This document shows positions 9,782 through 53,960 of a DNA stretch of 64,000 nt, piece by piece; position 1 is the stretch's first letter, and each line of letters begins with the position of its first letter. The stretch is taken from positions 124,001 to 188,000 of the forward strand of contig JASANH010000253.1 in the NCBI GenBank assembly GCA_030248295.1, read 5' to 3'. The translations under genes were made by a program, and so were the position numbers. The DNA is from Mesodorylaimus sp. YZB2_4 (taxonomy: Eukaryota > Nematoda > Enoplea > Dorylaimida > Dorylaimidae). The notes beneath the pieces were generated by a model that ran no database searches, was not told the DNA's origin, and saw only the letters and a program-made list of their open reading frames with translations.

Positions 9782-9989
9782 GTTTCTCACAATGACAGCA
9801 ATTCCAGCACTATCCCAGTGAAGGAAGCACCACCAATGAAGACCACTGGCAGCACTCCAAAACTTGTACCCGATTCATTAGCGTAACGCCCGCAACGCAA
9901 GGCCGCACTTGTACCCAACCAACGTATTCGAGACATGGCAACGAATTAAGCTGACAGCGTCCAGTTCACTTCAAGTCGTTCAGCTTGGT

Positions 9990-20795: not shown

Positions 20796-21179
20796 ATGTT
20801 TTCGGTGGAATTAGTTCGCAAGCATATCAATGGGATAGTTCAGGGCGTGGATGGTCTTTATACTGTGATTATTACTGATCGCGATGGTGTGCCATTGTTG
20901 AAAACGTCCGTTGATCACGCGCCTGACATTTCTGTTCGTCCTCACATGTTGGCCATGCATGGACTGGCGTTGGAACAATCGGCCAAAATGGGTTTGGGCG
21001 AAGTGAAACACGTGGCTTGCGCGTATAACCAATATCAACTGGTACTGCTCAATTATGGCCCGCTGCTGGTCACATTGATCGGATCGTCCGAAGCGAACAC
21101 TGGCCTCATGATTGCTTTGCAAAATGAGCTGGAACCCATCGTTAGCCAGTTGCGCCAAGTCACAGTGGATGCACTGTAG
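20796..21179 (+). CDS. LAMTOR3: LAMTOR3 (MP1), Ragulator roadblock subunit
   Basis: A single-exon frame of 127 residues, close to the usual 124. It matches the family along its whole length: VDGLYTVIITDRDGVPLLK, the RP-- block, an LG--K segment, YNTYQ-like YNQYQLV, and SSEANTGLMIALQNELEPI near the end. LAMTOR3 is one of two roadblock-fold pairs in the Ragulator complex on the lysosomal surface, where it anchors Rag GTPases for mTORC1 activation and scaffolds MEK1-ERK. All conserved blocks are intact and the frame has no intron. ATG 20796 is the first in-frame ATG. An AATAAA lies 150 bases after the stop. It is an ordinary, host-type gene and a good marker that the contig is animal DNA. Confidence 0.93.
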   Translation: MFSVELVRKHINGIVQGVDGLYTVIITDRDGVPLLKTSVDHAPDISVRPHMLAMHGLALEQSAKMGLGEVKHVACAYNQYQLVLLNYGPLLVTLIGSSEANTGLMIALQNELEPIVSQLRQVTVDAL

Positions 21180-32735: not shown

Positions 32736-34577
32736 TTAGCAAGTAAAATCATTCTTAGTCTGTAAATTGTGATATCTAACTGCTGGCAAGTTCTGATAAT
32801 AGTTTTCTTCAAAGGACTTTTCAGTTATTCCATTTACTCGATTCCAGTGCCAATGCTCCAAACAGAATAATGTAGCTGGTTCGAATTCTTCATAGATCTT
32901 ATGAGCCGTCAGTTCAGGCCTTTGAATCAGGGTTGATACATCGCCAACTCCAAAAACGCATGAGAATTTCCAAAATTTGCCAAAGCATTTTGATGGATGC
33001 CACCAGTCGCGATCCCAGATTTGATATCGAGAAATGAATGGTTTCCATTTATTCCAATGTTGGTAAAAGTATAAGCATTGGCCAGGGAATGAACCAGGTG
33101 CACCTAAATGAATGTTATGGATTATGGTGGTCCAATAATGTTCTTCTGCGCATTTCGTATTGTTTAACCATTCATAAAATCGAATACTCGTGGGATTCGT
33201 GAATAAAAATTTCACAAAATCTTTGGTCATTGACGTAGCAAAGCTACCTTTATAAATTGTTAAGCCATCAGGCAACACTGGTCTAACTTCCGGAGTCTCT
33301 TTCGAGTCTGAAAACCAAGTGGGGACAAAAAATTCATTGATCAATGGATCCAAAGCGCTGTCTTGGCTGCCGTTGAGAATTTGAAAAATTTTCACCATTT
33401 CTTTATTAGTTTTTAATGGGAAGTCATTCCATGACACAATTTGAACATAACGCCAAGGAATCTGACGCGATTTTTCCAATAAAATTTTCAAACATTCCAT
33501 CACTGTGTGTAGAATTGAATACAATCCATAATAGACGGGTTCTGGGTTGGGATTTATAAAAACATTATTTTCCATAGCGAAACATTTTGACAATTGATTA
33601 ATCGTTTTTTGATAAGCTTCTGAACTTTTATTATCATAAGTTAAACAATAAGCGTTTTGTGGCTGGTAAATTGTTCGAAAAAATCGAACACTTTGAGCAG
33701 CATTTCTGGCTCCCAGAAAAACGTAGGCTAACGGAAAATCTTTCTCCTCCTTGGACAATGACTCAGTTGGGAAAGAAACAATATGACGAAATTCCGTGCA
33801 GTTTGAGACCAAGTCAAGTATCGATTGATCAGTATGTGGGAATGGGATGGTCCAATTATGCGGAGAAATAGGAATCGACATACTATCACTAGACGGTCTC
33901 AGAATCGAGTCGCACATTCCTGTAACTTCAGACCAGTTGACTACATCTGGATATTGGCTCCATAAACGAAACTCGAAGGAGGGTGGGGATTGTGTTTGGC
34001 CATCGTGGTCTTGGGGGATAGTTGAATTATCTCTTTGGAAAATATCGATAATAGTTTCTACGTTTTCACCCACGGCAGAGCTTATTCTTTCGTGATGGTT
34101 GATTGAATTCGGGCCCTGCACTTGGTCCAATTTGAGACTTCCAATTGTTGAACTATGTTGGAAAACCGTTATTTCTGCAGGCCGACCATCACTCAAACTC
34201 TGAACTGGACCACGATTCGACGATTCTGCCTGGCTGGTGTGGTAATTGATCAGCTTAGGGTTGAAATAACTTTTATCAGACGGCTCTTGGTTAACATGAA
34301 CTTGTTTATAATTCACCATTGAATAAAATACTGCATGAAAACTGAATGCAGTTGGATTCTGATTGGAGTTATTCCAAGTATAAGTAATTACGAATAAGAT
34401 TATAGCACAAAAAATTGATAAGACGCGAAAACCAGTTCTGGGTTCCCGTATTCGAAGCATTTCTAGCTTTAGTCCGCACCAACACGCTTCATCTGAACCG
34501 AAATGCGATTCTTGCGTTCTAGAATTCCCCATTACGCTGTCCATTTTGATGTCCCCGCCTCGGTTGGAGGGGTGCAT
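32736..34577 (-). CDS. Core-2/I-branching beta-1,6-N-acetylglucosaminyltransferase family (GT14)
   Basis: A single-exon frame of 613 residues with type II Golgi layout: short cytosolic N-terminus, one membrane anchor at about residues 53-72 (VLSIFCAIILFVITY), a variable stem, and a luminal catalytic region from about residue 280. Family motifs are LAYVFLGARNAAQSVRFFR, then IYQPQNAYCLTYDNKS, then YVQIVSWNDFPLKTN and the Cys-containing C-terminal region ending near HWHWN. GT14 enzymes transfer GlcNAc (or xylose in the xylosyltransferase branch) to O-glycans or proteoglycans; the sugar here is not decidable. ATG 34577 gives the longest protein and ATG 34541 (MDSVMGN) is an alternative. Nematodes have many such genes. 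The lack of introns is unusual but not disabling. It lies between a beta-lactamase-like gene and a retrotransposon remnant. Confidence 0.82.
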   Translation of the reverse strand: MHPSNRGGDIKMDSVMGNSRTQESHFGSDEACWCGLKLEMLRIREPRTGFRVLSIFCAIILFVITYTWNNSNQNPTAFSFHAVFYSMVNYKQVHVNQEPSDKSYFNPKLINYHTSQAESSNRGPVQSLSDGRPAEITVFQHSSTIGSLKLDQVQGPNSINHHERISSAVGENVETIIDIFQRDNSTIPQDHDGQTQSPPSFEFRLWSQYPDVVNWSEVTGMCDSILRPSSDSMSIPISPHNWTIPFPHTDQSILDLVSNCTEFRHIVSFPTESLSKEEKDFPLAYVFLGARNAAQSVRFFRTIYQPQNAYCLTYDNKSSEAYQKTINQLSKCFAMENNVFINPNPEPVYYGLYSILHTVMECLKILLEKSRQIPWRYVQIVSWNDFPLKTNKEMVKIFQILNGSQDSALDPLINEFFVPTWFSDSKETPEVRPVLPDGLTIYKGSFATSMTKDFVKFLFTNPTSIRFYEWLNNTKCAEEHYWTTIIHNIHLGAPGSFPGQCLYFYQHWNKWKPFISRYQIWDRDWWHPSKCFGKFWKFSCVFGVGDVSTLIQRPELTAHKIYEEFEPATLFCLEHWHWNRVNGITEKSFEENYYQNLPAVRYHNLQTKNDFTC

Positions 34578-35990: not shown

Positions 35991-36000
35991 TAGAAAGCGT

Positions 36001-37423: not shown

Positions 37424-37908
37424 TAGGCTCGTCTTCGTTGTCCTTGAACCAGTCGAGCGCAGCCGAAGGAGTAAACGTGAAGCAAGCATTTTAGGCCGCT
37501 ATCACAACATGGCTTTTAAAGCATGACAGTCGAATGAAGATTCAACAAAATCGTGGAGTGTTTGAGGCATATTTCATGTCGTCTAGGACAAGCGATGAAG
37601 ATTTATGCACGGGTACTTATTTCTATACGAAAGCTTAAAATTTGAATAGCCACAGTTTCGCAACACTGACAGTGGGGGAAACGACTCATTGAGCCGATTG
37701 GTTGGACAGAGTGAGGAAGTCGGCTCAGTGGGGGAATCGACTAAATGGGCGGAACGTCTCACAATCGAGGAGATAGCCTAGAAATTTATGCTACATTGAT
37801 TTCATGGCGACACTTTCCTGCTACGCTCAATGCAAGAACATAACCACTACAGCAGCTCCTTTTACGCTTGCATATACAGCGAGAAATATATTCTGCAAAC
37901 GGCACTAT
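37424..37908. other. 3' flank of the ACV synthetase gene
   Basis: A 485-bp interval separates the dead retrotransposon from the synthetase stop codon. It is non-coding and presumably contains the synthetase 3' UTR. I see no canonical AATAAA in the first 150 bases of the minus strand. Confidence 0.4.
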
Positions 37909-40900
37909 CTACCCCTTGATATAAAAACTCTCAATCACATTTCTCATCTCGTCTAAAATTTCCTGATTATATATCCAAGACGTATGATTATCATCATTCA
38001 TTTCCACTAAACGAATCCTCTGTCTGTCGATGAGTGTGTCCAAGTCATTACACTCAGTCTGCATATAATATTCGTACATTCGCATCTCGTCCTCCGTCTT
38101 ATACATATCATTCAATTTCTTGGCTTGGAATAAGGCGATATGTGCTGCAGTTGACGCCAGTTTCTTGAAATCTCCTGCTCGTCTCGATTCAGCATAAAGA
38201 TAGTTTATTTTGTCAAGTATGCATTCTTCTTCTTTCTTGCCGATTACATTGGTTGCTTTTGGAGCATTGAAGTAAGAATCGATAAAAATTACATTATCGA
38301 TTGTTTCACCACTTTGAACTAATTGTCGGGCGATTTCGAGTGAGAGAACCCCACCAAAACTCCAACCCAGAAGACTGTATGGCCCAGACGGTTGAATCTG
38401 TCGGATATACTTGATGTAGACCTTTGCCAAGTCCTCGAAAGTAGTCGGTGGCTTGTTGGAATATAGGTAATAGTTGTTGAAAAGAATGAGCCGAAGTGAT
38501 GTTAATTTTTGCACAAGATTGTTGAAGTAGCTTTCTGCACCGCCCTCTCCAGGAGGAAGCATGAACAAGATGTTGTCAGACGTACCAGAAAATTCCACGA
38601 ATGGTTCGAACCCGCCCAAAGAACCAATTCCAGGTTGAACAAGTGAGGTTGGTTCAGTGAAGTGATGAATGATTTCTTCCAACTTGGACTTAAAAATTGC
38701 AGAAAACGTTTCAGTTTCCATTCGACCGAGACGGGAGGCAATACTGAACTGCATGCGATTATTAGAACAAATCCCTGTGATGCTAATCAAGTCGTGATCA
38801 GCGTCTTGGCTCTCTGCTGATCGATCTTGTCGGAATTTCCCCGTCACGTCGGTCAAAGTCCATTTTTTCTGTTTCTCGGCCTCAAACTGTCCTAAATAAT
38901 TGAAACTGACTCTCGGCAAATCACTACCATATCCAACTGCTGGTCCATAACCAATGCCCTTGTTGGGGACAGCCAAGTTCAAGTAATCTTTTACTGATTG
39001 AATGCTGCTTCGAATATTTTCTCCAACTGTCAGTTCGACTGGATACATTGTCGTGAACCAACCGACTGTGCGACTTACGTCAAGAGTACTGTCGATCTCC
39101 TGACGGCCATGGCTTTCCAAAGTGACGTAGTTCGTGCTGTCTTGAGTTATGTATTGAAGAGCATAGGCCAGCGCGGTCAGCAATAGATCGTTGATTTGGG
39201 CCCCATAAATCTGGTTGCAACTACGAAGAAGATGATCTGTCTGCTCGCTAGACAGCATGATGTGGGCTTCTGCTGCTGTTGTCGCCGATCCCACAACAGT
39301 TTCGAGTTTTTTATTATATGTATCTGTCTTGTTGGCCAAGGTTCTCCAGAAGTGTGCCTCGCTGTCTGACTTGGCTGGGTACTCGAGTACAGCTTTCGCC
39401 CATTGCCGGTAGCTGCTACCTTTTGGACCCAACTCGCCTCCATTGTAAAGCGTATGCAAGTCCTGACAAATGATTCGCCAGCTGACTGTGTCCACTACCA
39501 AATGATGCATAGCAAACCAGACGCGAGCTGATCTATCCTCATAGCCATGCAGGTACACAATGCAGTATGTGGGACCCACCTCCAGTTTAAACGAGCTTTG
39601 CCATTTTGCCAGCGTCTCGAAAAATGGCTGATCGCATCGTACATCAAGAACCTCCAACCCGACTACTTCTGACGCTGGATCATAGAATTGTACCCAGCTA
39701 TCGCCAGTTTTCTTGTATCTTAGTCGAAATGCGTCGTGATACTCAATCAACTTTCCCAAAGCACATTTGAGCTTCTGCAAATCCAGTTCAGGGGTCTGAA
39801 TAGCAAATGATTGATTCCAATGTGCGTAATTGGTGAGACTTTTGCTGAAGAACCATTCTTGGACTGGAAGCATTGGCACGGTGCCACTCAATATGCCTTT
39901 CTCTGATTGAATATCGACTTTAGATTGAGTTTTAAACGAAAAATTATCTACAATTTTTCGAATCGTTTTGTGAACGAAAATGTCTTTGACTGAAATTGTA
40001 ATATTTAGGGCGTGCCGCATTCGTCCGCATACTTGTTGAGACATAATGCTGTCTCCGCCAAGTCTAAAGAAATCGTCGTCGATTCCGATGCTTGAGATGC
40101 TCAGTGATTCCGACCAAATTTGGCATATGCTTTTTTCTGTGGCATTTCTTGGTGCTGCGTAGCCTTCCTTATCACACGCGAAATCTACTATTGGCAGCGC
40201 TTTAATGTCCAGCTTGCCATTTATGGTTGTTGGCAGATGATCATCAACGCGGATAAATCGTGCTGGTATCATGAAGCTTGGCAGTCTGCCCTGCATTGCT
40301 GTAATTATCGCGCCCTCATCCAATTTCTGGTTATTCTCTGAGACATAATATCCAACCAGGCAGTCGTACCCTAGACCAGGGTCATTCTGACGATTCAATG
40401 GCACCACAGCGCATTGCTTGACTGCAGGATATGAGGATAATTCCAACTCGATTTCATGCAGTTCAATTCTCAGCCCATGGATTTTCACCTGCAGATCATT
40501 TCTACGCAAATATTCCAGTTCTCCTAGAGCATTATACCGAACCAGATCTCCACTTTTGTAGAGACGATCAAATCGGCCAGTTTTCTTCTCTTCTTCCGTT
40601 TGATATGGGTTCGGCAAGAATCTTTGCGACGTTAACTCAGGCCTGTTCAAATATCCTCGAGTCAAACAGTCTCCAGCCAAATAAAGTTCTCCGATAGCGC
40701 CAGGTGGCAATATCTGCAGACTTTCATTCAATACGAACAGTTTCATATTTGATAGCACTTGACCCAATGCGTTCCTGTATTTGTCATCGTTCTCATACCG
40801 ACATGCCATATTGTAGACTGTGGTCTCAGTAATACCATAAGCATTGACTAAAGGTCCAGGAAATTCCCGTCGTATCTTTTCAAATTGATTTTTAGTAAAG

Positions 40901-43900
40901 GCTTCTCCAGCCACAGTCACCTGCCTCAAATGCTGCAATTTAGACAGGTCGATCTGTTCCAGGTAGGTTGGTGTCCCACTGAGGTATGTGAGACCATTCG
41001 AATTTACATAGTCATAAAATTGATCATCAAACGTCCAATCTGAATCGATCAGAATGAGCTTATTCGAGCTCAAAATGGACAATGCAAATTGCTCTACTGA
41101 AAAATCAAAAACATAGTTCGATAAGAACAATACCGACTGCTGTTGAGCAGGACGATGGCCAAAATATCTTTTTTGTATGTCATTAGAAAAATTTACCACT
41201 GATCGATGTTCAACTAAGACACCTTTTGGATGTCCTGTGGTGCCTGATGTATAAATAACATAAGCCAAGTTATTGGAGGCTGCCAATGACTGGTAGTTGA
41301 CAACAGGATGATTGTTAATCGAGTCCATAATTTCAGGATTATCGATTTCGATCAATGTCGTCCCGCTTCCAGTCACTTTCCTAATCCTGTCGGCATACTT
41401 CCGATTAGCGATGATCACTTTGGCTTCAATGTCTTGGAGAATAAATTGAATTCGTTTATTTGGGTAGCTAGGATCGATGGGTACATAGGCAGCTCCTGCT
41501 TTCCAAACTCCCAGAATGCTGATGAGCATCAATTCACTCTTGTCCAGGAAAAGTGCTATCATGGAATCTGGCATGATGGGACTGATCGTTTGCAAATAAT
41601 AAGCCATTTGATTCGACCTATTATTCAGATCCCCATATGTAAGCACCTTGTCCAGGTGAACTATTGCTGTTTTGTCACGACAATTAACCACTTGTTCTTC
41701 AAAGACTTGATGAAGCGTCATGTCAGAGACGATGTCCAAACTAGATGCCATCAGTGGATCAACCACTTTCCTATCGACCAACTCGATATTCGCCAGTTTC
41801 ACGTCGTCAGGGTCACTTATTTTGGCAAATTGCCTGAGAGTCTGCGCGTAAGTGTCGATGAATCTGCTGACAGTTCTTTTCTTGAAAAGTTTTGAGCAGA
41901 AGTTGAAATTCCCTTTGATTGATTGACCCAAATCAGTAATGGTTGTCGATAAATCATACTTGGCAATGCGCTGATTAAACTGATCAGGCGTGTACCCGGC
42001 CACTTCCATATTTGACGAGTCGCTTTGTTCACTCTTGATGCTGGTTTCAAATGGGTTCAAACTGAACACAACTTGTACAATGGGATGACGACTCAAATCC
42101 TTGGGCACTTTCAACTCCTTGACTAATTTCTCAAATGGCATTTCCTGATGAATCTGCGCTTTGATAACTTCGTCGCTTACCATTTGAATGAATCGATCTA
42201 CCGAGGCATTATGATCAATTTTCACTCTAAGGACCAGCATGTTGACAAAAAATCCAATCATATTCTCCAGTTCAGCGCGATTTCTGTTTGCAACTGGTGT
42301 TCCTATGACGATGTCATTTTGATTGGCGTAAATACTCATGGTCAGACAGTAGGCACTGACCAACAAGCTGAACATGCTGACTCTCAGCTGCATTGCCAAC
42401 TGCTTCAATTGACTGGTTGTATCAGGATCCAATTCGAACGGCAAGTCAATTCCAGAATAGTCGAATTGGAGAGGTCGTGAGAAATCTGTAGTCAGATTTA
42501 ATATTTCGAATCCCTCCAGTTTTGGCTTCCAATAATCCATGAGACTTTTTAAATTGGTATTTGAAAAGTTCTGCCTCTGCCAAGCTGAGAAATCCTTGTA
42601 TTGTACACTGAGCACTGGAAGACCCACGTTTTTGGCAGCTTTGGCATGAAATACGTAGAAAGCCTTCAAATCACGTTGAAACAGTGTCCAGGACCATCCA
42701 TCAAAGCAGATGTGGTGGGTCACAACTGTCATGAACCATCGACATTGACCATTGGTTGCCAATTCGAGTAAAGTTACCTGAATTGGTAAGTCGTACTCCA
42801 AGTGGAAGATGTGCTTCGATGCTTTGATCATCTCATGGTCCAAAGCTTTCAAGTCACTGACCTCGACTTCATCAATGATCAGCATTTTTTCAGCTTCATC
42901 CTCTGCCAAAACTCTCTGCAAATAACCTCCGTGTGGTTTCTGGCGCAAGAAAACAGTTCTGAGAATTTCGTGCCTTGCAACCACAGATTTCAGTGATTTT
43001 TTCAAGATTCTACGGTTCACAGTTTTTGCTAATTCCAAGTGCATGGTAACATTGTAAGCTTCATTACCGCCGTCGTATTCGTTGATGAATAGAAGTCTTT
43101 CTTGCGCAAAGGAAACTTCGGCCTCGTTACACTTGACTTGTTGGATAGCATGAGCCGCATCCTCCTTGTCCAAGATATAGCTTGACATGGCCTCGATAGT
43201 CTTGTTTTGAAAAATCGTGGTCACAGTGAAATTGCGCGAAAAAATGCTCGAAAGTTTGAAAAATAGCCTTTGAACCATCAAGCTGTCACCACCCAGACTG
43301 AAGAAATCATCGTGAATACCGATATTTGTCACAGGAATGCCCAATAAGTCTGACCAAAGGTGACATAGTTTCATCTCGATCTCATTTCTTGGTGCCACGT
43401 GGTTGCTGCCGGTTCTCAAAAATTCAACAGCTGGAAGACTTTTGCTGTCCAATTTCCCGCTAATACTTACAGGAACTTCTTCGATTTGAACCAATCGATT
43501 GGGAACCATATAGTCTGGTAATCGGGATTGCATATACTTTTTAATCTCATTTTCTTGGATAGAGTCACCTGCGACGAAATATCCAACCAGGTACTTCCTA
43601 ACTGCTCCTCCATTTTGCTTGTGATCTCTGGCCACAACAACCCCTTGCTTGACTCCTGTATAGGAGGCTAGCACTGACTCGATTTCGCCTAATTCAATTC
43701 TTAAACCACGTATTTTGACTTGGAAATCATTTCGACCTAAATATTCAATCTCTCCATTCCGTAACCATCGAACCATATCACCAGTTTTGTAAATTCGACC
43801 GTTTCGTCCTTGCAGCTTCTCCTGTTCACTTTGGAATGGATTTACTCGGAATCGATCGCTGGTCAATTCTGGACGGTTTAGATACCCGCGTGCTACACCC

Positions 43901-46900
43901 ACACCGCCCAGATACAATTCCCCAACTCCACCGATGGGCACACGTTTCATGTCATTGTTGAGAACATAGCAGGTTGTATTTGCCACTTGAGTACCGATAC
44001 TTTTGTTGGTTCTTCTGTCTTGGATTAGATAAGGCCGTTTATGGCTCGTGATCGATACTTCTGTGGGTCCGTATCCATTGATGATCATTCCATCGAATGT
44101 GCTCCTGATCTTGTTGAACGTTACTTCACTGAAATCCTCTCCAACTGCGTCGATTCGAGTGAGGCAATGGTCGAATTGGTCATAACCGTACATTTGCAAA
44201 ACTGATGGTGTCCCAGACAGGTAAGTCACTTTGTTCTTGGATATATACTCGTACAGACGTTTTTTGTCCACTCGCATTTCATCGTTTAGTACAGCCAAGG
44301 TTTGGCCATTTAGCAGAGCGTCAGTCATTTGTTCAATGAAATGATCAAAGACAAAGTTGGAAAATGACAAAATGACTTCCTCCTGTTGTTGAAGTGAAAA
44401 AATTTTAGCCAACGAGATTTGAAGATTGACTACGCCGATGTGCTCCACCATGACGCCCTTGGGATTGCCAGAAGTGCCGGAAGTGTAAATCACATAGGCA
44501 AGATCGGTGGCCTTAGCAATCGGCTGGGGATTTGCTGTTTCGATGACCAAATTTGATGGATATCTAAGCGTCTCAATTTCTATTATTTTGATGCTGGCAC
44601 CAAAAAGTTGATGTAATTTTGCCGAATGCTTTTGATCAGCTATGATCACTTTTGAATGTGTATCGCCCAAAATGAATTTGATTCTGTCGTCAGGATAGCT
44701 TGGATCGATTGGGACATAGGCAGCTCCAGATTTCCATACTCCGAAGATACTCATGATCATAAGTTCGCTTTTGTCTTGGATTATTGCAATGAGGGTATCA
44801 GGCCTGATCTCAGTGACTGATCGTAAATAATGGGCTAGCTGATTGGATCGTTTGTTGAATTCACGATAGGTCATGTTTGCATTTTCATATATTACCGCCA
44901 CCTTTTCTGGATACTTTTCCGCCATATCTTCAAAAATTTGGTGTAGTAACTTCGTTTCTGGAAATTCTGCTTCTGTGTTATTCCATTGATTTATAATATC
45001 GATATCCACGGGACTGATCAGTTCCAAATCAGCGACTAATTTGTGGCAGTCGATTGTGATTTGGGCCAGCAGGACTTTGATCAGAGTGAGCATGCCAGTT
45101 ATCACGTCTTCTTCGAACAACTCACCAGCATACAATAAATTAAATTTGATGGACTCCCCAATTTCGTAAGCCATTACTGCCAATGGATAATTTAATTTTT
45201 CTACTGTTTCCTTCAGTTCGAATCGTAAAAGTTCTTTGTTCGCCGCAACTCGAGTTTTGTTCAAATGCGCATAATTCTCCAATACGAATAAGCTATCGAA
45301 CAAGTTGTGCATTGTCTCACCTTGATTCAACCTCGCCAGTTCTACGTGATCTCGAGTGTTGATTTCGTTCACTTGGTTTTGTAATTCTTTGATCGCATCA
45401 ATTATCGATTTTTCCCGATATCGTTCGTGATCAACAACTAATGGCAAAGTATTGATAAATAGTCCTACTGATGTTTCAATATTATCGATTGGAATATTCC
45501 TTCCAGAAACTAAAGTGCCTGTAATTGTCTGATTGCTGTTTCCATATGCATTCAGCAATTTGTGCCAAGCAAATTGGAGGACAGAATGCAAAGTGATGCA
45601 GTTTGATGAGCAAAAATTCTTGATCTTCGAGTATAATTCGGCATCAATAACGAGAGCTTTTTCTTTTTGCTCTTTGATGTGGTCGTAGTCACTGAGAGCA
45701 ACTTTGTACTTGTGCTCTTGCCTTACCAAACCGTTCAAATCGCACCGCTCTACAATTTGATCGATTTGTTGCCGCCAATATTCCAAGTGGTCATCACGAT
45801 GTTCTTCAAGATAGGTTTGGGCGAGGCAATAGCTAGTATCTGGGACTACGGTTACATGATTGCCTTTGACCAGTTCCAAGTAGGTCGTATGAACAAAGTC
45901 GTTCAAGATTGGGAAACTCCAGCCATCCAGGATGATATGGTGGCAGCTAAGCAATAGTTTGAATTTCTCCTCAGTTTGTTTGATCAAGTAGATACGAAAT
46001 AAGCTGCCTTTCTCCAATTGATATTTCTCCAAACGGTCTTGTTCTTGAATTCGCTTAATTTCTGATTCCTGCTTTGCTAATTCAGCTTGACTCAAGTCGA
46101 TGAATCGCCAGTCCAAGGCCTGAACTCGACACACTTTTTGTAAGACATTTTTTTCAGTGGCAAGAAAACGCAGCCGCAAGCTTGGATATTTAAATTGAGC
46201 GAATTCCCACGCCTGACGATATGTTTTTGGCTCAAGTGCGGTTTTGTACTCGTAGATGTATTGGACGATGTAGGCGTCATCGATGTGGCTCTGTTTCAAA
46301 TAGTGGTACATGAATCCTTGCTGCAAACTGTTGGCCAGATAGACCGCTTCGACATCCTCGTCCAACTCTGAACTTAGATCGGCGATGAACTTTTCTTTTG
46401 GCCTGTCATCGGTTGAATATGGCTCGGATGAGCTGATTTTTTCGGTCAAGAACTTAGCCAAGTTCTCAATATTCTTCAAAGCAAAAATTTCGTTTAGCGA
46501 TATATTGACTGCAAATAGTTTTCTGATTTGACTAATTAGTTGAATCGATCTAATACTATCACCTCCTAATCGCATGAAATCGTCCGTTTTGCTAATCTTG
46601 TCCCATGGGAAGTCAAGAATTTCAGACCAAATATAGATTAATTTATATTCCATTTGGGTCAGTGAACTAGGCTCGACCTCGCTGCCATCCAGTGTGTCCA
46701 AATCCGGTAGCGCCTTCACGTCAAGTTTTCCGTTAATTGTTACTGGAATCTTGTCCAATTTGATCAGCCGTATTGGAACCATATATTGTGGCAATTTAGA
46801 CTCCAAATACGTCATCATTTCGTTTTCTGATGATACAACGGCTGAATCAGGAACGAAGTAGCCAACCAAATACTTGCTTGTGCGTGACCCATCGTCATTT

Positions 46901-48369
46901 TGTGTTTGCTTAGCCACCACCACGCATTGCTTTACGCCTTGGAATAACGACCAAACTGATTCGATTTCACCCGGCTCGATCCGAATGCCATTTATCTTTA
47001 CTTGAGTATCGTTTCGGCCCAGATATTCCAGCTCACCATTCGGCAGCCATCGAGCAATGTCGCCAGTTTTGTAGATGCGATCATTCCAACCATCAAACTT
47101 CTCGTTTATGTTCTGGAAAGGATTGGTCAAGAATCGCTGCGATGTTAGGTCTGGGCGATTCAAATAGCCACGCGACACTCCGAGTCCACCAATAAATAGC
47201 TCACCACATTGACCTTCGGCAACTTCCTTTAAGTCACTATCCAGCACATAGCACCTCGCATGGGTCACTGGCTTTCCAACACTTCTGTCAACTCTCTCAT
47301 CATCTGGCCCATATTCTTTGAAGGCTGTAACAAAAGCAGATTCTGTGGGGCCGTATTCGTTGATAATTGCGCCTTTGAAGGTTTTTCTGATCTTCTTATA
47401 ACATGCCAAAGTCAATTCTTCGCCAGCAAATAGCAGTCGACGTAGGTTCGGACATTGAGAGTACTCATATTCCTGGAGCACTGAAGCAGTTCCATTCAGG
47501 TACGTGACCTGATGTTGTTTCAAGAATTGCTCAAATTTTGCAGGATCCTTTTTCATACTATCGTTGACAACAGCCAGGGTCTGTGAATTTAGCAAGGCCA
47601 TCAGTAGCTGCCTCATGAATGGTTCGAATACATAGGCTGAGAACAGGGCGATGACTTCTCGCTGCTCGCGAATTTTATACTTTTTTGCCAAATCCATAAT
47701 TGCATTGACCACATTTCTGTGTTCTTTGATGACCCCTTTCGGATTTCCAGTCGTTCCAGACGTATAGGTCACATAGGCCAGATTGAAGGCGGTCAGGTTT
47801 GGAACTGGATTTGATGCTTTTGTTTCCGCAGGTATTGACTCAATTTCTGTCACATTCAGACTAGCGTTCATCAGTTCGCTCAATCTCGAAGTATATTTTT
47901 TATTGGTGATTACCAATTTGGACTTGGTATCATCGAGGATGAATCTGATTCTTTCGTCAGGATAACTAGGATCAATCGGCACAAAAGCACCGCCCGACTT
48001 CCACACTCCGATGATGCTCATGATCATGTATTCGTTTTTGTCCAGTAGCAGCGCAATCAAGTTATCCGGATGAACACTGACCACTGAGTGAATGTGGTGG
48101 GCCAACTGGTTTGATCGAGTATTTAATTCTTTGTAGGTCATCTTGGCTTCATCGCAGATTACAGCTGTTTTTTCAGGCGATTCATTGGCCTTATCTTCGA
48201 AAATCTGGTTCAGGGTTTTGATCATTGGAAAATTAAGACCATCGTTTGTTTCCGCTGGCATATCGAAGGCAAAGCATTCCTTCAATCGAGGGCTAAGGAT
48301 TTCAGGGCTCTTTAACGGCCGTTCCAAAGTAGCGGTTTCGCGCTCATCGACTTCGCTTTCTTTGACCAT
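37909..48369 (-). CDS. pcbAB: ACV synthetase: tripeptide NRPS for L-aminoadipyl-L-Cys-D-Val
   Basis: One uninterrupted frame of 3486 residues. Domains, by approximate motif residue: A1 (YTSGTTGNPKG 205), T1 (LGGDSI 603), C1 (HHIILDGW 811), A2 (YTSGTSGNPKG 1298), T2 (1694), C2 (HHICFDGW 1888), A3 (2376), T3 (2772), E (HHLVVDTVSW 2956, then ESHGRQ and GWFTTMYPV) and TE (GWSFGG 3337). This order is that of ACV synthetase. By-eye pocket codes are EPRNLAEFVK (fungal aminoadipate code EPRNIVEFVK, 8/10), DHESDVGITK (Cys) and DFESTAAVYK (Val). The E domain would give D-Val and the TE would release ACV. All carrier Ser and His catalytic motifs are present. It starts only about 50 residues before A1, shorter than the fungal and bacterial enzymes I recall (3650-3790). 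Intronless, unlike its partner IPNS, which lies divergently 2.7 kb away. It needs a phosphopantetheinyl transferase from elsewhere. Horizontal transfer is likely. Confidence 0.95.
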   Translation of the reverse strand: MVKESEVDERETATLERPLKSPEILSPRLKECFAFDMPAETNDGLNFPMIKTLNQIFEDKANESPEKTAVICDEAKMTYKELNTRSNQLAHHIHSVVSVHPDNLIALLLDKNEYMIMSIIGVWKSGGAFVPIDPSYPDERIRFILDDTKSKLVITNKKYTSRLSELMNASLNVTEIESIPAETKASNPVPNLTAFNLAYVTYTSGTTGNPKGVIKEHRNVVNAIMDLAKKYKIREQREVIALFSAYVFEPFMRQLLMALLNSQTLAVVNDSMKKDPAKFEQFLKQHQVTYLNGTASVLQEYEYSQCPNLRRLLFAGEELTLACYKKIRKTFKGAIINEYGPTESAFVTAFKEYGPDDERVDRSVGKPVTHARCYVLDSDLKEVAEGQCGELFIGGLGVSRGYLNRPDLTSQRFLTNPFQNINEKFDGWNDRIYKTGDIARWLPNGELEYLGRNDTQVKINGIRIEPGEIESVWSLFQGVKQCVVVAKQTQNDDGSRTSKYLVGYFVPDSAVVSSENEMMTYLESKLPQYMVPIRLIKLDKIPVTINGKLDVKALPDLDTLDGSEVEPSSLTQMEYKLIYIWSEILDFPWDKISKTDDFMRLGGDSIRSIQLISQIRKLFAVNISLNEIFALKNIENLAKFLTEKISSSEPYSTDDRPKEKFIADLSSELDEDVEAVYLANSLQQGFMYHYLKQSHIDDAYIVQYIYEYKTALEPKTYRQAWEFAQFKYPSLRLRFLATEKNVLQKVCRVQALDWRFIDLSQAELAKQESEIKRIQEQDRLEKYQLEKGSLFRIYLIKQTEEKFKLLLSCHHIILDGWSFPILNDFVHTTYLELVKGNHVTVVPDTSYCLAQTYLEEHRDDHLEYWRQQIDQIVERCDLNGLVRQEHKYKVALSDYDHIKEQKEKALVIDAELYSKIKNFCSSNCITLHSVLQFAWHKLLNAYGNSNQTITGTLVSGRNIPIDNIETSVGLFINTLPLVVDHERYREKSIIDAIKELQNQVNEINTRDHVELARLNQGETMHNLFDSLFVLENYAHLNKTRVAANKELLRFELKETVEKLNYPLAVMAYEIGESIKFNLLYAGELFEEDVITGMLTLIKVLLAQITIDCHKLVADLELISPVDIDIINQWNNTEAEFPETKLLHQIFEDMAEKYPEKVAVIYENANMTYREFNKRSNQLAHYLRSVTEIRPDTLIAIIQDKSELMIMSIFGVWKSGAAYVPIDPSYPDDRIKFILGDTHSKVIIADQKHSAKLHQLFGASIKIIEIETLRYPSNLVIETANPQPIAKATDLAYVIYTSGTSGNPKGVMVEHIGVVNLQISLAKIFSLQQQEEVILSFSNFVFDHFIEQMTDALLNGQTLAVLNDEMRVDKKRLYEYISKNKVTYLSGTPSVLQMYGYDQFDHCLTRIDAVGEDFSEVTFNKIRSTFDGMIINGYGPTEVSITSHKRPYLIQDRRTNKSIGTQVANTTCYVLNNDMKRVPIGGVGELYLGGVGVARGYLNRPELTSDRFRVNPFQSEQEKLQGRNGRIYKTGDMVRWLRNGEIEYLGRNDFQVKIRGLRIELGEIESVLASYTGVKQGVVVARDHKQNGGAVRKYLVGYFVAGDSIQENEIKKYMQSRLPDYMVPNRLVQIEEVPVSISGKLDSKSLPAVEFLRTGSNHVAPRNEIEMKLCHLWSDLLGIPVTNIGIHDDFFSLGGDSLMVQRLFFKLSSIFSRNFTVTTIFQNKTIEAMSSYILDKEDAAHAIQQVKCNEAEVSFAQERLLFINEYDGGNEAYNVTMHLELAKTVNRRILKKSLKSVVARHEILRTVFLRQKPHGGYLQRVLAEDEAEKMLIIDEVEVSDLKALDHEMIKASKHIFHLEYDLPIQVTLLELATNGQCRWFMTVVTHHICFDGWSWTLFQRDLKAFYVFHAKAAKNVGLPVLSVQYKDFSAWQRQNFSNTNLKSLMDYWKPKLEGFEILNLTTDFSRPLQFDYSGIDLPFELDPDTTSQLKQLAMQLRVSMFSLLVSAYCLTMSIYANQNDIVIGTPVANRNRAELENMIGFFVNMLVLRVKIDHNASVDRFIQMVSDEVIKAQIHQEMPFEKLVKELKVPKDLSRHPIVQVVFSLNPFETSIKSEQSDSSNMEVAGYTPDQFNQRIAKYDLSTTITDLGQSIKGNFNFCSKLFKKRTVSRFIDTYAQTLRQFAKISDPDDVKLANIELVDRKVVDPLMASSLDIVSDMTLHQVFEEQVVNCRDKTAIVHLDKVLTYGDLNNRSNQMAYYLQTISPIMPDSMIALFLDKSELMLISILGVWKAGAAYVPIDPSYPNKRIQFILQDIEAKVIIANRKYADRIRKVTGSGTTLIEIDNPEIMDSINNHPVVNYQSLAASNNLAYVIYTSGTTGHPKGVLVEHRSVVNFSNDIQKRYFGHRPAQQQSVLFLSNYVFDFSVEQFALSILSSNKLILIDSDWTFDDQFYDYVNSNGLTYLSGTPTYLEQIDLSKLQHLRQVTVAGEAFTKNQFEKIRREFPGPLVNAYGITETTVYNMACRYENDDKYRNALGQVLSNMKLFVLNESLQILPPGAIGELYLAGDCLTRGYLNRPELTSQRFLPNPYQTEEEKKTGRFDRLYKSGDLVRYNALGELEYLRRNDLQVKIHGLRIELHEIELELSSYPAVKQCAVVPLNRQNDPGLGYDCLVGYYVSENNQKLDEGAIITAMQGRLPSFMIPARFIRVDDHLPTTINGKLDIKALPIVDFACDKEGYAAPRNATEKSICQIWSESLSISSIGIDDDFFRLGGDSIMSQQVCGRMRHALNITISVKDIFVHKTIRKIVDNFSFKTQSKVDIQSEKGILSGTVPMLPVQEWFFSKSLTNYAHWNQSFAIQTPELDLQKLKCALGKLIEYHDAFRLRYKKTGDSWVQFYDPASEVVGLEVLDVRCDQPFFETLAKWQSSFKLEVGPTYCIVYLHGYEDRSARVWFAMHHLVVDTVSWRIICQDLHTLYNGGELGPKGSSYRQWAKAVLEYPAKSDSEAHFWRTLANKTDTYNKKLETVVGSATTAAEAHIMLSSEQTDHLLRSCNQIYGAQINDLLLTALAYALQYITQDSTNYVTLESHGRQEIDSTLDVSRTVGWFTTMYPVELTVGENIRSSIQSVKDYLNLAVPNKGIGYGPAVGYGSDLPRVSFNYLGQFEAEKQKKWTLTDVTGKFRQDRSAESQDADHDLISITGICSNNRMQFSIASRLGRMETETFSAIFKSKLEEIIHHFTEPTSLVQPGIGSLGGFEPFVEFSGTSDNILFMLPPGEGGAESYFNNLVQKLTSLRLILFNNYYLYSNKPPTTFEDLAKVYIKYIRQIQPSGPYSLLGWSFGGVLSLEIARQLVQSGETIDNVIFIDSYFNAPKATNVIGKKEEECILDKINYLYAESRRAGDFKKLASTAAHIALFQAKKLNDMYKTEDEMRMYEYYMQTECNDLDTLIDRQRIRLVEMNDDNHTSWIYNQEILDEMRNVIESFYIKG

Positions 48370-48393
48370 TATTCAGTGTGATCGAGCGCAGCA

Positions 48394-48409
48394 CTGAAAA
48401 GAGAGTAAA
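48394..48409 (-). promoter_or_regulatory. Strong 3' splice site 24 nt upstream of ACVS ATG
   Basis: On the minus strand TTTACTCTCTTTTCAG lies immediately 5' of a 24-base leader and the ACVS start codon. It could close a 5' UTR intron or accept a spliced leader. Either way, the otherwise intronless synthetase has an animal-type expression signal. Confidence 0.5.
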
Positions 48410-48614
48410 GTCTGGTTCATGAGAGCTTTACTGTCTTAAAGAAGAAATAGGGAAGGGATTAATTTTACAAAGGTACTTTCACTCAACTCTTATGTCGCTT
48501 TGCTGCCTGTCACTTTTAATTCAGTTCTGTGCGGTTTTTCAGCGAACATTCTTACTACGCCTCAAGCCTCAGGCATAGTTAGGACTGCTGATCCTCTTTG
48601 AGAACCTCTTAGCA

Positions 48615-48659
48615 GCACCTATTAACTATAGTAAACTGTTTACTTTAGTTGATAGGTGC
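48615..48659. repeat. 45-bp near-palindrome upstream of ACVS
   Basis: Arms GCACCTATTAACTATAGTAAAC and its complement differ at two positions around a central base. It lies 245 bp upstream of the synthetase ATG, inside the divergent intergenic region. It may be a foldback-element scar or a dyad binding site. Confidence 0.7.
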
Positions 48660-51045
48660 GGAACAACACACCAAAGGAATGCTATATGGGGTATGTTCTG
48701 CCGCAGAGCAATGTCACAGTGTTATGACGATTTGTACAGCTTAAAATCAGATACTATAGATTTCGGTCTGGATGTGTGTGACGAGCGGTCAAGTGAAATT
48801 TGTTAATAAATCTGATGTGGACCCTACGACGTGGAAAAGAAGAAAATGCAAAGCCGCAGACGATGAACTGAAATTTTAAATGGATCCTAGCGCTTGCATA
48901 TACAAGTGGTCAGTGGTCAGTGGACAGTGGACAAGAAGGTGCCAGACGCCAGGACAGCTAGTTGACTTGTAAGTTAACTATGTACAGTATGTACAGTTTC
49001 GAGAAGGCTACGGATAAGGGATGAGTTGGATTTGAATTTTAAAAGGGTTCGGTCTTTGGCTCATATCCGTTATAAAAAGGTCCTTTTTGTGGAGTAAACT
49101 GTGTAGCCAAGTCTTTTGCAAGGTCTCCAAGGTGGGAACATGGACTTCATTAAAACTTAATGAAGTTCAAGTAACATGGCTCACCACTGTTAATTCCTAT
49201 CACTGCGTAGCTCCATCCGAAACTCAGTCACCCTCCAGCCGCGTCAGCCTGAGAGTTACTACTTTTCTAGCATTATTCAGTACTACTCAACAGTTCAGCC
49301 AGATCATAGGAATCATCTCAGAAAGTGCCACTTACCTATTTTTCCCACGTCGAAAAGCAATTTCTCTTACCCACACTCACGATCAGCTCGTCTCGAGCTT
49401 TTACAGTAAACAAACGTCTTCTTTGAAGGTTCAGTGTAAACCGACTGATCAGCACTTAACTTTGACAGACTTTCTGAATTCTAAGACTTGCGCATCTTTA
49501 AAAAGGAGGCGTGCCTACACTGGTGCAGGCCGTGTTGACATGCAGCCAACCTCCGGGTTGAAGATAAGATGTGCTCATACGTAAGGGTCGCGTTTATGGC
49601 ATGTATATACAGGCAATTAGGATAACCACCTTGGCATGTTCAGCTAACAGCACCGCAATATTTACGTCAAAATTGCTTCACAAAGTGCAACACTTGCTGT
49701 CAATATCCTGCATACATCGTCATTTGTAAATGGTGGTGGCGTTCGTCGAAATTGTCTTTCAAGAGATGAGCGTGTGTCATACTCTTGTAAACTGCACGGT
49801 GTCAGACCCCGCCATGTAGCTGGCCTTTCAGTAAGCACTTGCGCTAAAAGTTAATTGACCACCCAGTTTGTTGACAGATGGCAACTTAAGCTTAACAAAG
49901 CGCACACGTGCATCCAATATGCTGCTTACTTTCGTACCTTCCAGCCAGCTTCACTGCGTGCGTCACAGTCGACGCAAGTAAAATACAGATTGACAGATAA
50001 GACAATGTTGGCTGTAATGCATCAAGATACGATTTCATTTTTGTAAACGTTTGCGGTGCATGGCTTCTTCCATCCACGACAGGTGCTAATCAGAATCACT
50101 GGTGCTTGCTCGATGAAGAAAGCACTTCACACCCATTCCTTGTTCGTCGAACGTGATATGGTTTGACGAAAAGTCCCCCCCCCCCTCTTTGACATTGTTA
50201 TAGTAACAACCTTATCTGGCCAGAGCCCACGAGATTTTTGGTGTGCGTGGTCAGGTACAAACAAGGTTCTTGATTCGAAATGCTGTTCTTTCTGGTGAAC
50301 TTAGCTATAAAAGCTCCGCGTGAGCCAGTAGCTATAAAGTGCCCTTGAGACGAGCTATCATTGCAGGCAAATAATTGCGACATTGGTGCGAGGAGAACCA
50401 TTATTGAATATAACTTTGAACAAGAGCTCAGAAAAAGAAGTAAGCTCTTCTGTTTTTTAAGTTTTACTGGTGTGATCATCCCCAACTGCTCTGTTTGAGC
50501 ATGGGATATAGAGAAGCGGTCGCTAGCCGCGTGCTAGCTCGTCCTGTCATCGTGGTGAGATACCTAGATGATAAGCGAGCAATGCACCTATGTAAAGTCA
50601 GGATGTCAGGTGAGAAATAAACTCAAAGATAAGGACGGGCTAAGAATGTCTTCTTTGATGCCAACAATCAAAAGCGACTCCGCATAAAAACACCCTACTC
50701 TCACACCGAACTCACGAATTCTGATATCCGCTCCTTATCAACGCTATCATATCAATTACTAGGGTAGGGCCTCTAGTGGCTAAACCAAGTCAACTAAAAA
50801 AGCCCTATGAAGCTGGCTTTGCCCGCTGTTAATTTTAAATCTCATAAGACCCGTGCTGGAGGTGTGCTGAGGGGTCCTATAATGAATTTTTAAGTTTGTG
50901 GAAAGACCCCTAAAAGGGCTTAGCCGATATCGATTTCTTTCACAGTGGTGATCTGCCTGATATGCAGGTTTTCCGTTGCATAGCCGCTTGTCCGATTGAT
51001 CAATGCAATACTATCATCGATCCAAAAAAAGCATATCCAACTAGA

Positions 51046-51058
51046 CTGAATATTTTAG
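51046..51058 (+). promoter_or_regulatory. 3' splice site 6 nt upstream of IPNS ATG
   Basis: ACTGAATATTTTAG is followed by only six bases before ATG 51065. Such close spacing is typical of a trans-spliced leader acceptor, or of a 5' UTR intron ending just before the start codon. Confidence 0.45.
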
Positions 51059-51064
51059 GCAATC

Positions 51065-52432
51065 ATGATCACCAAACAAGCGGATATTCCGACCATCGAT
51101 ATGTCGCCTCTTTTTGGTGACGATATGGAAGCAAAACAACAAGTCGCAAAACAGATCGATGAGGCATGTCGAGACACTGGCTTCTTTTTCGCTAGTGGTC
51201 ACGGAATCGATTGTTTGCGGGAGTTTTTCAACATCGTTGATCACTTTCACCAGAATGTCACCGAGGAGGAAAAATGGAAAATGGCAATTGCCGCCTATGA
51301 TCCAAGTCACACTGATCATGTCCTCACTGGCTACTACTTACCTATCAAGGATAAGAAGGCTGTGCAGTCATTCGTAAGAGCATAGCTAGGGCAAAGGGAC
51401 ACCATTTCAGATGATTTCTTGCTTTAGTATCTTCAAAATCCATCATTCAATCCTGAACATGCATTGATCAAGGCCAAGACCCCACTTCACGAGGTCAACA
51501 TCTGGCCAGACGAAGCCAAGTATCCTGGTTTCAGAAAATTTATTGAAGGCTATTATTGGAAAGCGTTTGAAATGTCGCGCGTGCTCTTGCGAGGGTTTGC
51601 CTTGGCGATGGGGAAAGATGAACGTTTTTTCGATCAATTCTTCAACAAAGAAGACACCATGTCTTCGATGAGGCTGATCCGATACCCTTTCATCGATCCA
51701 TATCCACAAGGAGCCATCAAAACGGCAGCTGATGGTGAATTACTCAGTTTTGAGACTCACACCGACGTTTCATTGCTGACAGTCCTGTATCAGCCTCGTA
51801 AGTTAAGCTTTTTTTTTAATACAGTAGTTTTATCATGTGAGAAGGGCCAAAAAACAGGTTAAACTGACAACTGATGTTCGATACGATACGATAGCTCAAT
51901 TGCTGCCAAAGTCTGCCATACTGTACTTGCTTTGTCTTGTCAGACTTGACAGAACAGAATTTGGTTCTGGTATAAGGGTAGCTGTGGCGTGCTATCAGAA
52001 AGCTGAAAAAGTTGTGGGAATGAGGTAACGCAAAGCACAAGCATCTTTCTTTTACAGATGTGGCCAACTTGCAAGTTGATACCCTCGGTGGATACAAAAA
52101 TATTCGCGCTTCGGATGAAACTTTTCTGGTAAACGGCGGTCTATTCCTGCAAGGCATTAGCAACGATTACTACAAGGTGATTATATTTCGCTGTTATAAG
52201 CGGCTGCTGACTGACTACCCAATTTCCGTTCAAGGCTCCCCTTCATCGAGTGAAATACGTCAATGCTGAGCGTCTATCTCTTCCATTCTTTGTGCACTTG
52301 GCATATGACAGTGTATTGGATGGTTGGTCACCTGACGATCCTAGCGCTGCTCCCAAGTATCCGACCATTTCATATGGACAATTCTTCCAATCAGAACGGT
52401 TGGTGTTGATAAAGAAGAACGGCCAGACATGA
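51065..52432 (+). CDS. pcbC: Isopenicillin N synthase, four exons
   Basis: Exons 51065-51373, 51428-51797, 52058-52176 and 52235-52432 join in phase to 331 residues, the same length as Aspergillus IPNS. IPNS is a cytosolic non-haem Fe(II) oxidase that closes ACV to isopenicillin N with O2. Matching blocks: [70 protein letters not shown] and the C-terminus LIKKNGQT. Iron ligands are present: HTD (His214, Asp216) and His270 in APLHRVKYV. The RxS motif (Arg279, Ser281), Ser183, Tyr189 and the terminal Gln-Thr are also kept. Odd points: Arg87, which binds the aminoadipyl carboxylate, is Leu; Val185 is Arg; Cys104 is Tyr; and the MAH block near 260 is LQG. Introns of 54, 260 and 58 bp show it is adapted to an animal nucleus. 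Confidence 0.95.
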
Positions 52433-53299
52433 CATAATTCCGCAAGAGTATGCGATCTTTTGGATAAGTTGAATGACATGCGGCGACATATTGCACAGTA
52501 GTTGCTGGCCTATGTATTCTTTGATTAAAAAAACTTGCAAGTAACATATCTTCCTATCGAAACCTTGACTCCTCCGCCTGCCTAGCCTATGGCTACACAA
52601 GTAAGTCCACTACAAACCCCTAAACCAAGTACCATAAGCCCAAGCGTTATTTGGCCATAAAGGATTTCAGGGGTCCCGCCAGGCCGTTGTTTTTTAAGTG
52701 ACGGGGACAATTAATGTGTTACGGTATTGTGATAAGAGTATTTGAAGTCGAAGTTTGCCGCGCGTTGAACATTACGCCCCATGGCAAGCGGGGTGTCAAA
52801 CCAGGATTATCAACGGATACTCATGCATTAGAATAGGTCCTGTTGATCATGTTTGATTAGGCATACACAAACAAGATGATCACGGGCTAGCCCCGTGCTG
52901 TACCCCATCTTGCATGATTATTTCGCCTCATTCCACTGACTTGGACCTGTTCCCTTTTGTTCGTGTTTGTGCTGATAGACTAGCTCTCAACCAAGCATGT
53001 GTGTTAGGAAGGGTATAAATAGGGAGTGCCTATGCATGTATCATCAGTCAGAGCGCATTTTCGCACTAGTCAATGTACGGTCTTTCAATCGCTCGTATTG
53101 GTTTTTGTTTTCATTATTCCCCACGAATTGGACTCGGCAAGTCGATGGCACGCCTGGTCGGTGCATGTGGCAGCAACCGACTTCATCCGTACCGCCAGCC
53201 AGCGTACGATCGTTAAGCAATAATCGAGTGTGGTGTAGTTGAGTCAGTACGATCAGCTAGGTCGAAGTCCCTCTCCCTCGCCCAGCTTCATCTTTTTTT
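52433..53299. other. Intergenic downstream of IPNS
   Basis: No gene is visible. Open frames of 60-80 residues lack start context and known content. No canonical AATAAA was found in the first 100 bases after the IPNS stop. Confidence 0.4.
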
Positions 53300-53960
53300 T
53301 TGTTTTAAATTTTTGTGGGCCGAAGCCCTTTTTGCCTCTAGCCAGCCAGCAGTCAAACCTAATAAGCAGGGCTGTGCGGAGGCCAGCACTCACAGCAGCT
53401 TCCCTCTGCGTGTCTCCACTAGGAGCGCTTCCACGCGAGGGCATCGTGGACAATGGCTGAGCAGCGGTGGCTCAGTTGGTTTAAGGCGTTGATCCCGCAT
53501 TGCTTGGGCCAGCAACCCTGCTCGGGAGGCCGCAGTTCTGTTCCGACTGAGGACGGCAGTTTAGTAAGCCCGTTTTCAGAGTGGGAACTGGTCTCCGATG
53601 GCGATTTAGTAAGTCCGTCGCTGGCATGACGGTATGGGGCGACTCACCCGGTACCGTAATGTGGCAGACGCCTAACGAGTAGAAAATCAGGAAACTGGTT
53701 CCCGAACACGCGGGAAGGTCCCCTTCTCGCCCAGTATCATCCTGGGACGCTGGTGCTGGCACAGGATGCCCTCGTGTGGAGGTGCTCCTAGTGGACACAC
53801 ACAGCGCGAAGCTGCCGTGAGAGCTGGTCAGCTCACGGCCCCGCTGATCATTTCAACACTGCTGGCCGGCTATAGGCATAACGAGTTGGAAGTCTCGTGG
53901 GGAACTGGAGCGGCACAGGGCCCAACCCAAAAAATTTTTTTGCAAAATCCTGGACATCGG
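53300..53960. repeat. Inverted pair of a dispersed repeat (arms about 53300-53455 and 53755-53960)
   Basis: The left arm ends CTTCCACGCGAGGGCATCG. The right arm starts ATGCCCTCGTGTGGAGGTGC, its near complement, and the similarity continues outward through the CCAGCCAGCAGT and TTTTTTGGG... GGCC blocks. A third related copy lies at 62160-62330 on the plus strand. The arms flank a tRNA-like SINE (53461-53560). Together they form a nested or foldback mobile element. No protein is encoded. Confidence 0.65.
53461..53560 (+). mobile_element. tRNA-derived SINE, family 2
   Basis: GCGGTGGCTCAGTTGGTTTA is an excellent RNA polymerase III A box (TGGCTCAGTTGG). A B-box-like GTTCTGTTCC follows about 65 bases later. 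It is not a foldable tRNA. It lies between the inverted arms at 53300 and 53755. Confidence 0.55.

Follow-up and report, generated by a model that had tools for sequence, protein, structure and literature searches.

Beta-lactam genes of animals have been published from springtails, among them Folsomia candida, and in 2023 from one nematode, Plectus sambesii, with aminoadipate, cysteine and valine as the predicted substrates, and the same survey reported two tardigrade species as being without nonribosomal peptide synthetase (NRPS) genes (PMC10531068). Isopenicillin N synthase (IPNS) of the annelid Enchytraeus crypticus was listed as horizontally acquired, and the passage listing it mentions no synthetase (ACVS) for the tripeptide aminoadipoyl-cysteinyl-valine (ACV) (PMC8460440). 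In Folsomia, aminoadipate and phosphopantetheinyl transferase were described as native animal functions (PMC5200902). The present analysis concerns an ACVS/IPNS gene pair found in a 64,000-bp stretch of DNA (the window; positions 124001-188000 of the 250,283-bp contig JASANH010000253.1) from the assembly of Mesodorylaimus sp. YZB2_4 (145,146,385 bases in 1067 contigs). The pair was judged, with considerable confidence, to be a host-integrated and intact two-gene penam pathway of a nematode, acquired horizontally and belonging to an animal-borne lineage that tardigrades and bdelloid rotifers also carry. The pair comprised the following features, given in window coordinates:

37909..48369, minus strand: ACVS-like nonribosomal peptide synthetase, 3486 aa in one open frame, A1-T-C-A2-T-C-A3-T-E-TE
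48370..51064, no strand: intergenic stretch, presumably holding both promoters; 48400-51060 is single copy in the genome
51065..51373, plus strand: IPNS exon 1, followed by an intron after codon 103, phase 0
51428..51797, plus strand: IPNS exon 2 (His214, Asp216), followed by an intron after codon 226, phase 1
52058..52176, plus strand: IPNS exon 3, followed by an intron after codon 266, phase 0
52235..52432, plus strand: IPNS exon 4 (His270, Arg279, Ser281, C-terminal NGQT, stop)

The synthetase frame ran through all of its 3486 codons without an internal stop, for which the chance probability was log10 P = -71.6 at the stop frequency of 4.6% found outside the gene in the window. Pfam profiles identified three AMP-binding, three Condensation-type and three PP-binding domains and one Thioesterase domain. 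The motifs arranged them in the order A-T-C-A-T-C-A-T-E-TE, with the third Condensation match representing the epimerisation domain. The active-site residues characteristic of an ACV synthetase were present: the A3 motifs of the three A domains were located at residues 202, 1295 and 2373, the A10 lysine and the LGGDS motif occurred three times each, two HHxxxDG motifs were accompanied by one HHxxxDT, and the thioesterase serine motif (GWSFGG) was found at residue 3335. Only general NRPS models of NCBIfam matched the protein.

The specificity letters, taken from an alignment with 105 other rows at positions set by PheA numbering, were EPRNLAEFV for A1, DHESDVGIT for A2 and DFESTAAVY for A3, which correspond to aminoadipate, cysteine and valine. 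The A2 code was identical in 44 of the 101 other rows compared and the nine-letter A3 code in 39, while the A1 code was one letter off the commonest one, EPRNLVEFV (51/101), and two letters off EPRNIVEFV (32/101). Since the A2 and A3 codes were canonical and A1 differed by one letter from EPRNLVEFV, aminoadipate-Cys-Val is the simplest prediction for the tripeptide. The synthetase would thus activate an aminoadipate-type first residue, cysteine and valine, condense the three, epimerise the valine and release the product. A stand-alone A-T-E-TE synthetase that shares 56% identity with the final module of the window ACVS, and whose valine-type code was read by eye as DFESTAAIY, was also encoded in the assembly (contig C154, L015, 2182-6345).

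The IPNS gene (51065-52432) was oriented divergently to the synthetase gene, head to head at a distance of about 2.7 kb, and consisted of four exons separated by GT-AG introns of 54, 260 and 58 bp, encoding 331 aa. Compared with solved structures, the protein matched IPNS chains best (E 7.7e-126), and the best oxygenase chain other than IPNS scored 1.8e-30, which placed it closer to solved IPNS than to other 2-oxoglutarate/iron (2OG/Fe) oxygenases; no NCBIfam family matched it. The 2-His-1-Asp iron triad (His214, Asp216 and His270) was kept, as were the residues of the valine end of the substrate, i.e., Tyr189, Arg279, Ser281, Lys98 and the C-terminal Gln330-Thr331, whose roles in holding the valine carboxylate and at the C-terminus have been described (PMC5637899, PMC8378823). 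Judging from these residues, the enzyme should close both rings. In its close relatives P0002-P0004 (79-84% identical) the frame was unbroken, and their contigs (1299, 1221 and 1010 bp) are shorter than the 1368-bp gene span in the window, so these rows may be spliced transcripts or intronless genes. More distant relatives in the same assembly, on contigs C86, C283, C17 and C245 (L008-L012), were single-exon 2OG/Fe oxygenases with 27-31% identity. The one checked, L008, was nearer to other 2OG/Fe oxygenases and was rejected as an IPNS paralogue.

The host of the pair was a nematode, since 133 matches to the nematode cuticle-collagen family PF01484 were found in the assembly (137 candidates scored, best E 1.8e-19) and none in 14 control genomes, all of them prokaryotes. 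One such gene, read by eye, was of cuticle collagen type, with a hydrophobic N-terminus, a furin-type RQRR site and a Gly-X-Y repeat. The cuticle collagens ruled out a springtail, and likewise a tardigrade, a host suggested by the nearest named IPNS. A CAHS D query and the Catalase_C family gave no match in the assembly in a search without a suitable positive control (Catalase_C matched two bacteria only), and the exact SL1 pattern was found 0 times in the assembly, which is weak evidence against an SL1-bearing type of nematode. The flanks of the pair contained the following host features:

20655..21179, plus strand: LAMTOR3-like exon of a host gene (PF08923)
32736..34577, minus strand: core-2/I-branching (GT14-type) glycosyltransferase, 613 aa (PF02485, 4.3e-27)
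52728..53292, no strand: dispersed host repeat directly after IPNS, with further copies on C79, C21 and C7 (79-84%)
53459..53950, no strand: abundant dispersed host repeat, with copies on many contigs (81-87%)

On the left, Pfam identified LAMTOR3 (2.7e-31), DEG/ENaC (PF00858, 8.6e-25) and an Srsx-type G protein-coupled receptor (PF10320, 2.1e-13), and the GT14-type gene was the host gene closest to the ACVS 3' end, 3.3 kb from its stop codon. Gene matches on the right were weak (QVR, 0.01; ASC, 3.6e-5, just under its cut-off). The repeat at 53459-53950 had at least 84 matches among those listed, with 40 of 4611 candidates scored.

That the pair is microbial contamination or a product of misassembly could be suspected, as fungi and bacteria are otherwise the best-known sources of ACVS and IPNS and the intergenic stretch occurs only once in the genome. 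The latter carries no host signature and has no weight either way. Contamination is nevertheless very unlikely, because repeats dispersed in the host genome start about 300 bp beyond the IPNS stop on a contig of 250 kb, and almost no credence is given to it. The IPNS gene has introns, and the nearest named IPNS rows, among the 120 of 221 matches listed, belong to animals. A scan of bacterial and archaeal genomes (one per species, two short peptide patterns) yielded 11 IPNS loci with only 44-51% identity to the window IPNS, all with R87, C104 and S185, so that none of the 11 qualified as a bacterial source. No IPNS match was present in IMG/VR, and hence no viral contig as a carrier; no telomere pattern was seen in the window. 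The first-pass annotation, which had proposed a penicillin-type pair head to head in an animal genome among clearly animal genes, was borne out in this respect by the two proteins, the left-hand genes and the right-hand repeats, and its reservation that the host might be a springtail was settled by the collagens.

The nearest named IPNS row was that of the tardigrade Paramacrobiotus metropolitanus (70% identity across 81% of the query); rows of Panagrolaimus, Plectus, Rotaria and a fly were also among the nearest. When 52 IPNS rows were placed in a tree, 15 animal-side rows, i.e., the window and named animals (6 rows) and nine rows without a named organism, were split from all fungi and bacteria with a support of 100/98, which puts the window IPNS on the side described for springtails and Plectus. 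Within them, subclade I comprised seven rows (window, P0002-P0004, Paramacrobiotus, Panagrolaimus and Rotaria; support 100/99) and was retained with the pocket columns masked (99/97, 41 rows). A second animal group, subclade II, contained Plectus, the fly and others (96/80). A tree forcing the three nematode IPNS rows together was rejected (log-likelihood lower by 208.85, p-AU 2.3e-67), in a test for which the nematode group was named after the tree was seen and the Panagrolaimus row was a broken model without its middle. In the ACVS tree, built from 35 rows by a quick method, the two Paramacrobiotus copies joined the window first (99) and Rotaria/P0144 next (98), in agreement with the IPNS tree. 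Since the longest contig given for the Paramacrobiotus IPNS P0006 and for its ACVS P0149 is in each case one of 874,946 bp, the two genes are probably linked in the tardigrade as well. The ACVS row P0145 of Arachnomyces (see also P0147) was 51% identical to the window ACVS, about the same as the tardigrade, and most fungi and bacteria were 45-46% identical. The spread of the lineage across phyla may reflect animal-to-animal transfer or repeated transfer from one unsampled source.

The residues of subclade I differed from those of other IPNS at the pocket end that holds the first residue. In crystal structures, Arg87 is the salt-bridge partner of the aminoadipoyl carboxylate (PMC5637899, PMC8378823). 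The window IPNS has Leu87 instead; all seven subclade I rows had L (6) or V (1) at this position, where all of the 125 other rows had R, and all seven had Y at position 104, where 124 of the 125 had C. The comparison rows included eight of the second animal group and the 11 loci of the genome scan, and many of them were not placed in any tree. Further positions specific to subclade I were 88, 106, 142, 181 and 255. Position 185 was R in all six subclade I rows with a letter there and R (7) or K (1) in subclade II, and position 321 was R in 6/6 and 7/8 rows, respectively; outside both animal groups, R185 occurred in 4 of 106 rows and R321 in 3 of 117. In the synthetase, the four subclade rows whose first module is of the aminoadipate type all had A at position 301 of A1, and 99 of the 101 others had V. 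The fifth ACVS row of the subclade, Rotaria P0202, was partial, with a valine-type domain at the A1 place. By these letters, what sets the window IPNS off from every canonical row compared is the pocket end for the first residue. Because Arg87 and Cys104 were lost, Arg185 and Arg321 were present and Ala301 of A1 co-varied, it appears that the first residue, or its mode of holding, has changed in the subclade I lineage.

These results bear on the remaining proposals of the first-pass annotation. The phylogeny that it had called for kept the IPNS outside fungi and bacteria and grouped both proteins with those of Paramacrobiotus. Its suggestion of a new animal lineage was anticipated in so far as a nematode case, Plectus sambesii, had already been published (PMC10531068); it held for the gene subclade, which the tree and the p-AU test showed to be a different one. 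Beta-lactam genes in a nematode are in themselves no novelty, and the subclade shared with a tardigrade, rotifers and, for IPNS, Panagrolaimus is the new part. Animal beta-lactam genes thereby extend from springtails, one plectid nematode and an annelid IPNS to a lineage spanning nematodes, tardigrades and bdelloid rotifers. As to the two committed steps to isopenicillin N, the pair is real, and isopenicillin N as the product is not secure, because the window IPNS is without Arg87, the salt-bridge residue of the aminoadipoyl carboxylate.

Several observations weigh against an intact pathway of a single animal lineage. The N-terminal region of ACVS is regarded as important, and this region is missing in the window synthetase, with 201 residues ahead of the first A3 motif vs. 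a median of 421 in 101 other rows. Among the latter, a single row, P0238, had fewer than 260 residues there and is probably a fragment. A separate upstream exon was rejected as the explanation, as no homologous exon for the N-terminal domain was found in the intergenic stretch with nine homologous N-termini as queries. Both Paramacrobiotus copies were short as well (190 and 90 residues), and the rotifer-like row P0144 keeps a long N-terminus (438). The IPNS exon ends were picked by eye, so the splicing is predicted, and two of the seven subclade I rows are broken gene models (P0006 without its end, P0075 without its middle). Finally, the ACVS tree did not gather the animal rows; its backbone support was 41 and the fly row stood elsewhere, hence a single animal acquisition is not supported by this tree on its own.

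A penam pathway remains likely from the sequence of both enzymes, and with Arg87 lost the animal may make an unusual penicillin. The engineering of Streptomyces cattleya IPNS for other side chains, published in 2026, is informative here, as S185R widened the substrate range and S185R R87L was the best variant on three of four non-native tripeptides; its conversion was 50.6% for penicillin G, 62% for penicillin V and 57.4% for amoxicillin, compared with 44.3%, 54.0% and 50.5% for S185R alone, and the S185R R87A/L/S variants were inactive on ACV, the native tripeptide (PMC13338154). The window IPNS may still convert ACV to isopenicillin N, with Arg185, Arg321 and Tyr104 holding the aminoadipoyl carboxylate in place of Arg87, and this is a serious possibility, if short of an even chance. 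In its favour, ACV is the tripeptide most simply predicted from an A1 code that keeps EPRN-EFV and from canonical A2 and A3 codes. Arg185 and Arg321 recur among the animal-side rows, and L319 of the S. cattleya enzyme, which would correspond to position 321 if the numbering is shifted by two, has been described as close to the aminoadipate side chain (PMC13338154). The invariance of Arg87 in the other rows and the failure of the S. cattleya variants on ACV argue against it. Alternatively, the first residue could be a relative or a modified form of aminoadipate, with the IPNS pocket matched to it, giving a penam with another side chain without acyl exchange. This is entertained tentatively: the natural enzyme bears both changes that in the laboratory favoured penicillin G, penicillin V and amoxicillin at the cost of ACV, and the A1 pocket has its change at position 301 in this lineage too, but S185R alone already gave 44-54% and the gain from R87L was modest (PMC13338154), and A1 reads as aminoadipate in eight of nine letters, so that the change of Val to Ala may be neutral. 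The odds of ordinary isopenicillin N and of a different side chain are nearly equal, since the A1 code is otherwise conservative and Tyr104, Gln106 and Arg321 could rebuild the carboxylate site.

A bolder form of the latter proposal would be a natural penicillin lineage of nematodes, tardigrades and rotifers whose synthase works without the aminoadipoyl anchor and whose own side chain is built on the assembly line, with no need for the acyl exchange of Penicillium. By analogy, evolution would then have reached the same R87L and R185 pocket that engineers picked for phenyl-type side chains; as a whole, this is rather unlikely. Quite improbable is a non-antibiotic role or drift, in which the product would be a thiol tripeptide resembling ACV or the oxidase would be uncoupled. 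That Arg87 and the N-terminal region of ACVS have been lost fits it, and the shortened A-T-E-TE paralogue on C154 indicates that ACVS copies decay or specialise in this genome, but the 10.5-kb frame has no stop, both enzymes retain their catalytic residues, and several phyla share these pocket letters. The pathway reading of the pair makes it testable whether animals make penicillins by this route at all, and whether a natural enzyme yields penicillins with non-aminoadipoyl side chains in a single step, a goal of current engineering.

Two further genes, 18-25 kb from the pair, belonged to a beta-lactamase-fold family:

22886..23518, plus strand: PF00144 beta-lactamase-fold serine hydrolase, copy 1, three matched exons, SxxK motif SSTK
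30030..30662, minus strand: PF00144 beta-lactamase-fold gene, copy 2, inverted duplicate of copy 1

They lay in an inverted duplication (22876-24282 / 29276-30672) with arms 96%, 93% and 79% alike, and 93-96% over the gene. The PF00144 family is widespread in animals. In the whole assembly, its exon matches were confined to three places, an array on C100 (19 of 27), C179 (2) and the window pair (6). Noticed after the fact, the two genes are at most a putative part of the neighbourhood, and they hint at a role in self-protection or in chemistry of the side chain. Remains of a retroelement at 8869-11800 of the window, with a weak integrase match followed by frames including 10898-11797 (similar to the Monjiviricetes fusion glycoprotein, E 9.4e-9), look as if derived from an envelope-bearing retrotransposon. 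Between the GT14 gene and ACVS, at 35660-37426, BEL/Pao-like remains were named by eye from a weak aspartyl protease match. Elsewhere in the assembly, a COX1 frame (L018, contig C73), open only if TGA codes for tryptophan, lay inside a 488-kb contig and was followed by a nad4-like frame recognised by eye, and further COX1 pieces on several contigs represent mitochondrial DNA within the nuclear assembly.

Compared with the described systems, the window resembles Plectus and the springtails in having an animal-type ACVS and IPNS in a soil animal, with aminoadipate, cysteine and valine as the predicted substrates. Unlike the window enzyme, the Plectus IPNS (P0005), 61% identical to it, retains Arg87 and Cys104 and falls in subclade II. 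A DAOC synthase is also described from Plectus (PMC10531068). In the window genome, one bacterial query for DAOC synthase (cefE/cefEF), run without a positive control, gave no match, a negative of little weight for the cephalosporin branch. Springtails had no row by name among the 120 IPNS rows listed, and their placement was taken from the published account (PMC10531068). The likeness to Enchytraeus crypticus, an animal with IPNS, is by description only (PMC8460440). Fungal and bacterial ACVS and IPNS share the domain order, the A2 and A3 codes and the iron ligands, and differ in sequence (ACVS 45-46% identical; Arachnomyces P0145 higher), in having Arg87 and Cys104 and in the longer N-terminus.

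Among the open-licence papers searched, none was seen to deal with penicillin genes of tardigrades or of rotifers, and none with an IPNS lineage lacking Arg87; the words penicillin and lactam are absent from the paper on bdelloid NRPS. To our knowledge, subclade I is the first natural set of IPNS without Arg87. The closest counterpart was Paramacrobiotus metropolitanus (ACVS P0149 and P0153, IPNS P0006), with the nearest named IPNS and the nearest row of the ACVS tree, which shares Leu87, Tyr104, Arg185, the EPRNLAEFV code and the short N-terminus, but belongs to another phylum and has two ACVS copies. The engineered S185R R87L IPNS of S. cattleya carries the same letters as subclade I at two pocket positions (PMC13338154); it is, however, a laboratory mutant of a bacterial enzyme and has none of the Tyr104, Gln106 and Thr88 found alongside Leu87 in the natural rows.

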